Assembly (NCBI GenBank): GCA_016213405.1
Contig: JACRAM010000100.1
Coordinates: forward strand, 1 to 64,000
Source: Bacteroidota bacterium
GTDB taxonomy: Bacteria > Bacteroidota > Bacteroidia > Palsa-948
Direction: 5' to 3'
DNA: 64,000 nucleotides
Shown: positions 55,161 to 60,386 of the stretch, one piece after another
Position numbering within the stretch: the first letter of the stretch is position 1
How the letters are laid out: every line of letters starts with the position of its first letter
Translations under genes and position numbers: made by a program
Notes under the pieces: generated by a model
The model's input: the letters and a program-made list of their open reading frames with translations, nothing else
Databases searched by the model: none
What the model was told of the DNA's origin: nothing

Positions 55161-55239
55161 CAAATCCAAAGCAACGGGAGAATGATTACTTTATAACTCG
55201 TTGAATAATTCTTCCGCAGAACGACCTTTCAGTTTAATC

Positions 55240-55449
55240 AGAGTAGTATTTCACTGCATCAGAGTAGTATTTCACTGCATCAGAGTAGTATTTCACTGCA
55301 TCAGAGTAGTATTTTACTACTCCAGAGTAGTGTTTTACTGCTACAAAGTAATGTTTTACTACTACAGAATAGTATTTCACTGCAGCAGAGTAGTATTTTA
55401 CTACTCCAGAGTAGTATTTCACTGCATCAGAGTAGTATTTTACTACTCC
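55240..55449. repeat. Tandem array of ten 21-bp palindromic units
   Basis: Ten units with no spacers, each AGAGTAGTATTTCACTGCAT plus C or the variant AGAGTAGTATTTTACTACTC plus C. The second variant contains the perfect palindrome GTAGTA-TTT-TACTAC. The two variants alternate irregularly. It has the same 21-bp period as the array at 1421-1672, but another sequence. Confidence 0.92.
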
Positions 55450-55497
55450 AGAAACCATAAACAACACCAAATACAAGGGCGGTAGTTAAATCTGCTT

Positions 55498-55540
55498 ATT
55501 TCTCTCCCGCACTAAGCAGGAGCTTAGCGCGTACTGGGGA
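55498..55540. repeat. Direct repeat left of the toxin-antitoxin cassette
   Basis: TTATTTCTCTCCCGCACTAA followed by GCAGGAG, then GCTTAGCGCGTACTGGGG. CGCACTAAGC-AGGA-GCTTAGCGCG is a 10-bp hairpin. The same 27-base left part and TTAGCGCGTACTGGG right part recur at 56228-56289. Confidence 0.85.
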
Positions 55541-55657: not shown

Positions 55658-55951
55658 TTATAAATTTTTGTATTTCTTTTTGTAATCTTGCTTGCATGCA
55701 AACACGCGCAAAATAAAAATTACATTTTCCTCCATGCTGAAAATAATTACATACGGGAATTTCTGAACATACATTTCCCGCGTGAACCTGTATTTATTCG
55801 GATAGGCAAGCGGATGGCGTTTTATATTATCAATAGAATCGAAAATCACATTGGCAAATCTGCCGCCAAGATTTTCCTGTTGTTTATTATACCATTCTTT
55901 TGCATGAACAATATCGCTGACGGCTTTGTCAGTAATTATTAAACGGTACAT
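55658..55951 (-). CDS. RelE/ParE family toxin
   Basis: A 97-residue toxin. The pattern MYRLIITDKAVSDIVHAKEWYN, then GRFANVIFDSIDNIKRHPLAYP and FPYVIIFSMEENVIFILRVFA, is that of the ParE/RelE superfamily (a ParE-like branch that hits gyrase, or a ribosome-dependent RNase; not decidable here). Its ATG (55951) shares a base with the antitoxin stop codon (TGATG), so the two are coupled. Confidence 0.88.
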   Translation of the reverse strand: MYRLIITDKAVSDIVHAKEWYNKQQENLGGRFANVIFDSIDNIKRHPLAYPNKYRFTREMYVQKFPYVIIFSMEENVIFILRVFACKQDYKKKYKNL

Positions 55952-56184
55952 CACTTCTTTGCTTTGCCGTAAACTGCTGACTGTGCTTGTTCGAGAGAGT
56001 AATATTTCAGTTTTCCGGCTTTGTGCTCTGCCAATGTTTTATCTAATTCTTGTTTTTGCGCATCGGATAAAATGCTTTCTTCTCCCGAATGAAGTTTCAG
56101 CACTTTATACACCACTTCCAAAACATTCTCTTCTGCTTCATCAATGTATTGATGTACTTTTTTACGGATGGCTGTTGTTGTCAT
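55951..56184 (-). CDS. Antitoxin of the ParE/RelE pair
   Basis: A 77-residue protein. The helical N-terminal part (TAIRKKVHQYIDEAEENVLEVVYKVL) resembles Bacteroidota addiction-module antitoxins, and the acidic C-terminal half (ILSDAQKQELDKTLAEHKAG) would wrap the toxin. It is the first gene of the operon, which is normal for this type; it likely also represses its own promoter. Confidence 0.82.
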   Translation of the reverse strand: MTTTAIRKKVHQYIDEAEENVLEVVYKVLKLHSGEESILSDAQKQELDKTLAEHKAGKLKYYSLEQAQSAVYGKAKK

Positions 56185-56227: not shown

Positions 56228-56289
56228 ATTATTTCTCTCCCGCACTAAGCAGGAGCCCTGCCTGCAGGCAGGCAGATTAGCGCGTACTG
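56228..56289. repeat. Direct repeat right of the toxin-antitoxin cassette
   Basis: Same ends as the repeat at 55498-55540, but the hairpin loop is enlarged by CCTGCCTGCAGGCAGG, a perfect palindrome. It ends 4 bases before the stop codon of the gene at 56294. Confidence 0.85.
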
Positions 56290-56293
56290 GGTC

Positions 56294-57397
56294 TTATGAA
56301 TTCTGCTTTGCTGCTTGACGCAACAGTTCGTCAAGAACTGAAGTTGATTTATAATCTTCTATCTCCTTTCTAATAGATTTTTGACCAGAATTATATTTAA
56401 CAATATCTCTAAGGATTGTCCACGAAACAACTCCCTTTTTTTTATATACAATACCAAGTAATAATCTATAAAATGCCTTATTGTTAATAAAGTATCTCTC
56501 TTCTTCTGCTTGAGAAATACTTATATTTTTCAGTAATTCATATTCATCTATAACAACATTATTAATAGAAGACGCATTATTTATATTTCTTAATGAAGCA
56601 AGAAGCTTAACATATTTCGCAATATCCATATCTTTAAATATGGTATTAAATATTTTTGTTTTAAATAGTTTTTTATAAATCCAAACTACTGTAGGATTAT
56701 TAAAAAACTCCACAAATTCATCTCCAGAAACATCATGCTTAAACTTAAATGCTAAATTAATTTGCTTAACAATAAATTCAGGAACTTGACTTTGCTTAGG
56801 ATGAGTAAGTTCTTTTATATGGATATCAATTACATTGTCGATTCTTTTTCTTTCATTCCTTGGAAGATATTTTGCTAGAGATTTTATTTCAGATTGCATT
56901 TCCATGACCGTTTCATCAATCAACGGAATAAGAATATTATTCTTTTGCTTGGAAGACAACTCTCTGTCCTTAAAAATAGGAATTAGGACCTCCTCTATGG
57001 TTTTATTAAATGGAGTAAATGAATCGGATAAATTATAATACAAAACAGAATCTACCTCTTTAATATTTCGCAATGATTCATCATATGATTCCCTTAGCAT
57101 AGTAATTTTTTTTTCATCTATTTTTAAAAATCTTTTTCTAAGAACAGGCACACTCATCATAAGTTCATCAGATGGCTCATGGCTTCTAAAAAGTTTTTGA
57201 AGATGAGCTAGCTCCTTCCATATGTGCAATATATTAGCCGAGGCTATCCGGACTCTTTTATATAGCTCTTGCTTTCTATCATATTTTTTTCCTCGTATTG
57301 CCCATATAAAAGCAATGCACACCGCTATTATTGCACCTATATTAAATGCCCCAATAGTTTTTAGTATTGTTTCTGTTGTTGAAACTGAAGGTTCCAT
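56294..57397 (-). CDS. Unknown membrane-anchored helical protein (gene B of a two-gene unit)
   Basis: About 367 residues from the ATG at 57397, which follows the upstream gene by 19 bases; the longer frame overlaps it. One membrane helix near the N-terminus (about 15-35, GAFNIGAIIAVCIAFIWAI) with the bulk inside the cell, to judge from the basic RGKKYDRK that follows. The rest is charged and helical, with no recognised domain. It is AT-rich compared with dnaK next to it, a possible sign of acquisition. Confidence 0.6.
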   Translation of the reverse strand: MEPSVSTTETILKTIGAFNIGAIIAVCIAFIWAIRGKKYDRKQELYKRVRIASANILHIWKELAHLQKLFRSHEPSDELMMSVPVLRKRFLKIDEKKITMLRESYDESLRNIKEVDSVLYYNLSDSFTPFNKTIEEVLIPIFKDRELSSKQKNNILIPLIDETVMEMQSEIKSLAKYLPRNERKRIDNVIDIHIKELTHPKQSQVPEFIVKQINLAFKFKHDVSGDEFVEFFNNPTVVWIYKKLFKTKIFNTIFKDMDIAKYVKLLASLRNINNASSINNVVIDEYELLKNISISQAEEERYFINNKAFYRLLLGIVYKKKGVVSWTILRDIVKYNSGQKSIRKEIEDYKSTSVLDELLRQAAKQNS

Positions 57398-57416
57398 TAT
57401 ATTATTTAAAAAAGAA

Positions 57417-58379
57417 TTACTGAGGATTTTCTGTTTTCCCGGCTTCAAGTAACAACTCCTTACTTCTTTCAAGAAGTAATTGTCGATTTGAAATCTCTTT
57501 GCCTTCAATAACAATTTGTTTTGTTAATGTATTTTTTGCAATAATATCCTCAACATTTTCAAGGATTCCTTTTTTAAGAATAGCTGACATTTCGGGCTCA
57601 ATGAGTTTTTTATCCTCTGCTTCCTTTATCTTTCCTAAAACTGTTATCGTTTTCTCAACATCCTTTAGTGTCTGTCTATACTTGTAAGATTTATGAGCAG
57701 ACACATATTCCCAAAATTGTTTTATTACTTGTGAAATAAGATTCGCAGCCTTAGATGGGAGTTTAATTACAATATTGACATCACTTCCACTATCTATCAT
57801 TGCGACCTGAGGATATATATCAAATTTTTCATTTTCAATCTTATCATATAATAAATAAATAGTCTTTGTAAGTTTTTCTATGCTTGAAATTATTTCATTC
57901 AACTTAGACAATGACACAAGCCCATCGTCAATAACTTCTAAAATTAGATTGCCATTATTTTCTGCTAAATGAATGTCAAAGTTTTTGTTCGAATCAAAAA
58001 TATCTTTTTCTCCAATCAATAGATTATCAACTAAACGAAAAGTTGACAAAAGAGACTTATGAAATGAATAGAAATCATTTAAACCAGTATGAGATAAGAA
58101 TTGAGAACGATGATTTTGATTGGCTGGAATTGTAGAGATAAATGAAATAAGAGTAGAAAAATAATGTGTTTCATATATTTTCTCCGTTTCAAATTCCTTA
58201 AATACTTTCGCCTTGTCGACATCTGATATAGCTTTATCATACCCTCCCTTACTATCAACAATCATCATAAGCAGATTATTGCTAAGGATTTTATCTGTAG
58301 TAAGTAAATTAACTATTTGTCGACTTAATAAATTATTGATAATATCATTAAGATTATTCCTGAGCTCAAGTTTTTGCAT
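57417..58379 (-). CDS. Unknown soluble protein (gene A of a two-gene unit)
   Basis: A 320-residue protein without signal peptide or membrane segment. It is mostly helical, with a central beta-like strand group (NLILEVIDDGLVSLS, IYPQVAMIDSGSDVNIVIKL). The IDSGSDVNIVIKLP segment followed by a long helical pair (about 225-290) is the most distinctive part. No family is recognised. It is transcribed with the membrane protein downstream and separated from dnaK by a terminator-like hairpin. Confidence 0.6.
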   Translation of the reverse strand: MQKLELRNNLNDIINNLLSRQIVNLLTTDKILSNNLLMMIVDSKGGYDKAISDVDKAKVFKEFETEKIYETHYFSTLISFISTIPANQNHRSQFLSHTGLNDFYSFHKSLLSTFRLVDNLLIGEKDIFDSNKNFDIHLAENNGNLILEVIDDGLVSLSKLNEIISSIEKLTKTIYLLYDKIENEKFDIYPQVAMIDSGSDVNIVIKLPSKAANLISQVIKQFWEYVSAHKSYKYRQTLKDVEKTITVLGKIKEAEDKKLIEPEMSAILKKGILENVEDIIAKNTLTKQIVIEGKEISNRQLLLERSKELLLEAGKTENPQ

Positions 58380-58390
58380 TATAAGATTGT

Positions 58391-58429
58391 ATTAAAAAAT
58401 TAAACCCCGAACATTTCTATTCGGGCTTT
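58391..58429 (-). terminator. Rho-independent terminator of dnaK
   Basis: On the minus strand AAGCCCGAA-TAGAAATG-TTCGGGGTTT is followed by AATTTTTTAATAC. It starts 14 bases after the dnaK stop codon and precedes the unknown two-gene unit. Confidence 0.7.
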
Positions 58430-58442
58430 CTGTTGTTAGAGT

Positions 58443-60386
58443 TTATTTCTTCTTATCATCTTTCACTTCTTCAAAGTCCACATCCGTCACAGCTTCATCT
58501 TTTTTTGCTTCGCCATTAGTTTGTCCGTTTGCATTCGGCTGTTCAGTGCCGCTGCCACTGCCACTTGTATTTTGCTGCTGCGCTTGCTGTGCTTTGTAAA
58601 TTTCTTCACTCGCAGCATGCCATACTGTATTGAGTGCGGCAAGTGTGGTGTCAATCTTGGCAATGTCTTTTTCTTTGTGCGCGTCTTTGAGTTCGCTCAG
58701 GGCTTTTTGTATGGCTTCTTTTTTATCAGCGGGTATTTTATCTCCAAACTCTTTCAATTGTTTTTCTGTTTGAAAGATCATGGCATCGGCTGAGTTTATC
58801 TTGTCGGCTTCTTCTTTTGCTTTTTTGTCGCTCTCCGCGTTGGCTTCGGCTTCCTGTTTCATCTTTTTAATTTCGGCATCGCTCAGTCCGCTCTTTGCTT
58901 CGATGCGTATGTTCTGAGATTTTCCGGTGGCTTTGTCTTTTGCCGTTACGTGCAGCATTCCGTTTGCGTCAATGTCAAACGTTACTTCTATCTGCGGCAC
59001 TCCGCGGGGTGCGGGCGGTATTCCATCGAGGATGAACCTGCCGAGTGTGCGGTTGTCTTTCGCCATGGGTCGTTCGCCCTGCAGAATATGAATCTCCACC
59101 GAGGGCTGGTTATCTGCCGCGGTAGAAAATGTTTCTGACTTCTTGCTGGGGATGGTTGTGTTTGCCTCGATCAGTTTTGTGCAAACATTTCCCATGGTCT
59201 CAATTCCGAGAGAGAGAGGAGTAACGTCTAACAGGAGCACATCCTTTACATCTCCTGTTAATACTCCGCCTTGAATCGCTGCGCCCACCGCTACCACTTC
59301 GTCCGGGTTCACGCCTTTGTGCGGTTCCCTTCCGAAGAAATCTTTCACTATCTGCTGAACTTTCGGCATACGGGTCATTCCGCCTACCAGAATCACTTCG
59401 TTAATATCTGTGACTGAAAGTCCGGCATCTTTAATTGCTTTTTTGCATGGCTCGAGTGCGCGCTTCAAAAGGTCATCGCACATCTGCTCGAACTTTGCCT
59501 GTGTGAGTTTTTTTACCAGGTGTTTTGGAACACCATCAACAGGCATGATGTATGGCAGATTAATTTCTGTTTCGCTGGAAGAAGAAAGCTCGATCTTGGC
59601 TTTCTCTGCCGCTTCTTTCAAACGCTGAAGCGCCATCGGGTCTTTGCGCAGATCAATGCCTTCGTCTTTTTTGAATTCATCAGCAAGGAAGTCAATTATT
59701 TTCTGGTCGAAGTCATCTCCGCCAAGGTGCGTATCTCCGTTAGTGGATTTCACTTCAAACACTCCGTCTCCTAATTCAAGCACGGAAATATCAAATGTTC
59801 CGCCTCCCAGATCGAACACGGCAATTTTGCTGTCTTTATTTTTTTTATCGAGACCGTATGCAAGCGCTGCCGCGGTTGGCTCGTTGATGATTCGCATTAC
59901 TTTCAAGCCCGCAATCTCTCCGGCTTCTTTCGTTGCCTGTCTTTGCGAATCGTTGAAGTAAGCCGGAACGGTGATAACCGCTTCGGTAACTTCTCTTCCC
60001 AGATAATCTTCAGCGGTCTTCTTCATCTTCTGAAGAATGAGCGCTGAAATTTCCTGCGGAGAAAATTTGCGGTCGTCAATGACCACGCGCGGAACGCCAC
60101 CGTCTCCTTTCACCACCGTGTAAGGCACATATTTCATTTCATTGGCAACCTCATCAAAGGTATGTCCCATGAAACGCTTGATGGAACCCACAGTGTGTTT
60201 TGGATTTGTCACAGCTTGCCGCTTCGCAGGGTCGCCCACTTTGCGCTCACCGTCTTTTACAAATGCTACAATCGAAGGAGTGGTTCTCTTTCCTTCGCTG
60301 TTCGGTATCACAACAGGGTCGCTTCCTTCCATCACGGATACGCAGGAGTTTGTTGTGCCGAGGTCAATTCCGATAATCTTTGCCAT
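58443..60386 (-). CDS. dnaK: Molecular chaperone DnaK
   Basis: A 647-residue Hsp70. The ATPase domain (1-380) has [52 protein letters not shown] and [13 protein letters not shown]. The substrate-binding domain follows with [13 protein letters not shown], and the lid ends in a Gln/Ser/Gly-rich tail and the conserved acidic EEVKDDKKK-type end. It folds proteins with DnaJ and GrpE. No heat-shock operator of the CIRCE type was seen upstream. Confidence 0.98.

Follow-up and report, generated by a model that had tools for sequence, protein, structure and literature searches.

Two reading frames of low G+C content lie side by side directly behind dnaK in this genome, and the question they raise is whether they form a defence system or are two unrelated genes that share a place on the chromosome. 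An earlier note on this DNA had described a two-gene operon in an accessory island and remarked that such pairs often prove to be defence or stress systems. We refer to the whole 64,000-nt stretch that was analysed as the window. Both ORFs were found at the coordinates given in that note, on the minus strand of the window, a strand the note had left unstated. Genes A and B and their immediate surroundings are laid out as follows.

58443-60386: dnaK, adjoining gene A
58406-58425, minus strand: intrinsic terminator of dnaK, CCCGAA...TTCGGG, then U-rich
57417-58379, minus strand: gene A, 320 aa, soluble; N-terminal half predicted helical, C-terminal half predicted alpha/beta, with a DSGSD motif
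57398-57416, minus strand: A-B gap of 19 nt, sequence TTCTTTTTTAAATAATATA
56294-57397, minus strand: gene B, 367 aa, ATG start, one predicted N-terminal membrane helix
56229-56291, strand not given: copy of a hairpin-forming repeat, 2 nt from the B stop codon
55951-56184, minus strand: PF09720 antitoxin of the neighbouring toxin-antitoxin pair
55658-55954, minus strand: PF05016 ParE-type toxin of the same pair
55496-55538, strand not given: second copy of the hairpin-forming repeat, beyond the toxin-antitoxin pair as seen from B

A and B are not chance ORFs, since their GC by codon position is of the coding type (0.41/0.24/0.22 for A and 0.40/0.27/0.21 for B), the longest stop-free run among 2000 shuffles of the A-B region was 162 codons, and A has full-length relatives elsewhere. 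Their description as AT-rich was correct, with 29% G+C against 38.6% across the window, and the spacing of 19 bases was exact. No terminator was predicted inside the 19-nt gap, which is consistent with a single operon. The repeat at 56229-56291 is a possible terminator of that operon.

A Kyte-Doolittle scan found one strong hydrophobic segment in B (residues 16–34, score 2.27) and none in A, bearing out the proposal of a soluble protein followed by a membrane-anchored one. Beyond its N-terminal helix, B is predicted to be helical and is probably cytoplasmic. The protein of gene A contains the segment IDSGSDVNIVIKLP and had been called helical. That description fits the N-terminal half; a purely helical protein is not what we see, because two beta-hairpins, near residues 135–150 and 191–206, are suggested both by a low-confidence model and by the alignment. 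The C-terminal half would adopt an alpha/beta fold with the conserved DSGSD sequence (residues 196–200) at a turn.

Neither protein matched any family at a meaningful level in Pfam, PADLOC, PHROGs or NCBIfam, with none reaching its cut-off, and PADLOC-DB returned nothing for A or B up to E 1. A PADLOC scan of the A relatives in G398, G331 and G750 gave no defence-model match to the A relative either. Searches against PDB sequences found nothing, PDB profile searches gave only chance matches, and no relatives of A or B were found among plasmids, phages and viral contigs. The absence of a recognised domain, as first reported, therefore stands for Pfam, PADLOC, PHROGs, NCBIfam and PDB sequences.

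The two genes do sit between dnaK and a toxin-antitoxin cassette (PF09720/PF05016, 55658-56184), as had been noted, and A starts about 27 nt past the stem of the dnaK terminator. Neither gene occurs in any of the other six genomes of the genus. We located dnaK in five of those six (G001, G003, G004, G005 and G006) and compared the downstream DNA with the window, G003 having just ~250 bases of sequence behind dnaK. The DNA behind dnaK was different in each of the five comparable congeners. Aligned with G006 and G001, the window is homologous across the dnaK terminator and the homology ends just past it. Behind dnaK, G006 encodes a 376-aa protein that has two membrane helices, followed by a toxin-antitoxin pair homologous to that of the window. 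G004 carries a MazF-like toxin and a 369-aa protein with a weak nucleoside-deoxyribosyltransferase/TIR-effector match, the PADLOC 'TIR effector' match to this cargo being at E 5e-8, and G001 and G005 have small unrelated ORFs. Because the DNA differs each time and homology ends just past the terminator, we regard this site as a variable cargo slot of the genus, and it is a promising place to look for unknown cargo genes. The slot begins at 58380-58445 in the window, and the loci compared with it are L041, L042, L043 and L044. Three of the slots, those of the window, G006 and G001, have their new gene starting within ~30 nt of the terminator stem, which may permit read-through expression from dnaK.

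The variable slot, the absence of the two genes from congeners and their base composition lead us to infer that A-B was acquired laterally into the slot behind the dnaK terminator. The earlier note's reading of an undescribed accessory operon is supported, and the operon lies in a variable slot. The wider surroundings, read by eye, are not a defence island: on the dnaK side lie genes for arsenic and phosphate functions, and the opposite side encodes a secreted protein and an amidase. Site-specific integration into the 3' end of dnaK was considered and rejected, as no duplicate of the dnaK end is found at the far side in the window. In G004 (L044 2145-2290), part of the dnaK 3' end, AAGGATGATAAGAAGAAATAA, recurs shortly behind dnaK, and integration might leave such a copy.

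A has relatives in other Bacteroidota. A full-length one, 34–35% identical, is present in G398 (contig JAHJUE010000035.1, a Bacteroidetes MAG), and protein and profile searches added others in G331, G779, G776, G777, G750 (27% identical), G393, G426 and G382. G015 has a half-length version that consists of the C-terminal half alone (174 aa, L006 9824-10348), with no N-terminal remnant upstream of it; this stand-alone half suggests that A is built from two separable domains. The relatives have in common the DSGSD motif or near variants. In the tree, A of the window groups with G398 and G015 (94/96) and then with G750 (82/83); G331, G779, G776 and G777 form a separate clade. Full support is limited to three branches of this tree, in which G382 forms a long branch. 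Judged by sequence comparison, A belongs to a divergent Bacteroidota family that is undescribed in the libraries searched. Three weak matches were dropped, those in G125 and G385 because they overlap a GTPase gene and a UvrD-like helicase frame, respectively, and that in G148 (E 6e-4) because it has two internal stops.

The company kept by these relatives is mixed. In G750, 180 nt separate the A relative from a downstream ThsA gene (PADLOC E 1.2e-195), which is accompanied by two ThsB genes, all on the same strand; past the Thoeris genes comes a HepT-like and nucleotidyltransferase pair. In G398, the genes after the A relative encode a PF20712 TRADD-N-associated membrane protein and an AAA_15 ATPase, next comes a weak PIN match, and the island continues with a NACHT NTPase, an Mrr-type nuclease (Mrr_cat) and a type II-A retron. 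Defence loci thus adjoin two of the three nearest relatives, at gaps of ~180–230 nt and with no shared tight operon. The third, the half-length version in G015, precedes a gene for a protein of 134 aa that has a single hydrophobic segment, and a resolvase-like gene also follows. Housekeeping neighbours surround the members of the second clade and the distant G393, G426 and G382. Two genomes of the clade to which A belongs link it to defence, and the other genomes do not, so the expectation that homologues would lie near defence genes holds for the Thoeris locus of G750 and the island of G398 and fails for the second clade and the three distant genomes. The G750 relative stands upstream of a complete set of ThsA and two ThsB; however, there is no ThsA or ThsB in the neighbourhood of A in the window, and A is not among the described components of Thoeris. 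Beside Thoeris in G750 (L059 3886-7599), a second small unclassified gene of 234 aa lies upstream of the A relative, and the corresponding position in G398 is taken by an unclassified gene of 160 aa.

B presents a different picture. Searches of four overlapping sets of Bacteroidota genomes (198, 395, 228 and 6 genomes) found no relatives of it, and its single weak match, in G316 (E 0.0045), covers 56 residues within an 883-aa frame. As far as sequence similarity reaches, B is an orphan specific to this lineage. The earlier note had asked whether the homologues always occur as a pair. Since no genome searched contains a B relative, the A-B pair is not conserved, and every A relative in those genomes occurs without B.

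We favour, at a probability of roughly 40%, the reading that A-B is an acquired accessory operon whose A protein serves as sensor or adaptor and whose B protein acts at the membrane, probably for defence. The cytosolic A would sense or relay a phage or stress cue through its C-terminal half. B, held by its one-helix anchor, would be its partner and take effect at the membrane, much as in abortive infection, and the pair would protect against phage or stress. Because B is specific to this lineage, A would be expected to work with different partners in different genomes. The original defence interpretation survives as an undescribed accessory operon with two A relatives in defence loci, without the conserved pair. 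Two-gene abortive-infection operons share the layout of a soluble and then a membrane-anchored protein in an acquired locus, but A and B have no detectable similarity to any PADLOC family. This arrangement of a cytosolic and a membrane protein in an acquired operon is of an already known kind; the family of A is new to the libraries searched. If A is a defence adaptor, it would represent an uncatalogued family in Bacteroidota immunity, missing from PADLOC and Pfam despite adjoining Thoeris and retron loci.

The main alternative is that there is no defence role at all, A being an ordinary cytosolic Bacteroidota helper that is sometimes borne on islands and B an unrelated, lineage-specific membrane protein. 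The housekeeping neighbours of the second clade and of G393, G426 and G382 are in keeping with this explanation, B without relatives fits it as well, and unrelated genes do gather in defence islands. It accounts less readily for the multi-gene defence loci beside two of the three nearest A relatives and for the operon-like spacing of A and B. We consider it a serious contender, albeit at less than even odds.

The neighbouring toxin-antitoxin pair raises another possibility, that A-B is itself an addiction pair, with B as a membrane toxin and A as its upstream antitoxin. A small two-gene operon adjoining such a pair and the membrane helix in B would suit this explanation, but at 320 aa A is large, its relatives occur without B and it carries no known antitoxin domain, and B, at 367 aa, is unlike small membrane toxins. 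We regard the addiction explanation as unlikely. The ParDE-type pair next door is likewise a two-gene accessory cassette in the same slot, but it has no sequence relation to A or B and is flanked by its own repeat copies. It is more improbable still that B is a decaying or non-functional ORF and that A alone matters: B lacks any relatives, but it is an intact frame with coding-type GC by codon position, and its 367 codons far exceed the longest run in the shuffles.

The earlier note had proposed structure prediction and a fold search for both proteins. AlphaFold2 gave a pLDDT of 40 both for A (2 sequences) and for B (1 sequence), and models of such low confidence are unusable for fold searching. 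In the C-terminal half of A, the predicted elements run strand, helix, strand, G/S turn, strand, helix (model pLDDT 40). The TRADD-N domain has a conserved 'uS' turn between strands 2 and 3 (PMC8195603), and the predicted element order of A, at that pLDDT of 40, together with its conserved G/S turn recalls this feature. At the level of sequence, one A consensus matched PF13820 at E 0.12, but six other sequences, of which five were profile consensuses and one a family member, did not reproduce the match. Among the controls, idealised consensus sequences produced a spurious match to Sigma70_ner with E as low as 2e-4, and reversed sequences matched at E values down to 0.004. PF20694 did not exceed its cut-off in any of the A-bearing genomes tested. 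A TRADD-N domain in A was therefore not accepted on sequence criteria, the PF13820 match being no better than the controls and unrepeated and PF20694 giving nothing above its cut-off. Among the TRADD-N conflict systems (PF20694, PF20712), a further point of contact is the PF20712 membrane protein that adjoins the A relative of G398, but A matched no solved TRADD-N structure. We treat TRADD-N similarity only as a lead. Were it to hold, A could be the founder of an undescribed family of defence adaptors with an RRM-like (TRADD-N-like) C-terminal domain and interchangeable partners, namely B here, the TRADD-N-associated membrane protein in G398 and Thoeris in G750, and the slot would allow read-through from the heat-shock operon. 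We offer this extension as a long shot.

The DNA around the toxin-antitoxin pair has features of its own. A hairpin-forming repeat with the core TTAGCGCGTACTGGG flanks the pair both in the window and in G006. In G006 the copies are at L041 4067-4109 and 5071-5108, and another location of the repeat is L042 3717-3731. The core has five exact copies in the seven genomes of the genus, four of which lie within a few kb downstream of dnaK. The slot also contains tandem arrays with a 21-bp period in the window (55237-55452) and in G006 (L041 3346-3890), and G001 has 42-bp repeats at a similar place.
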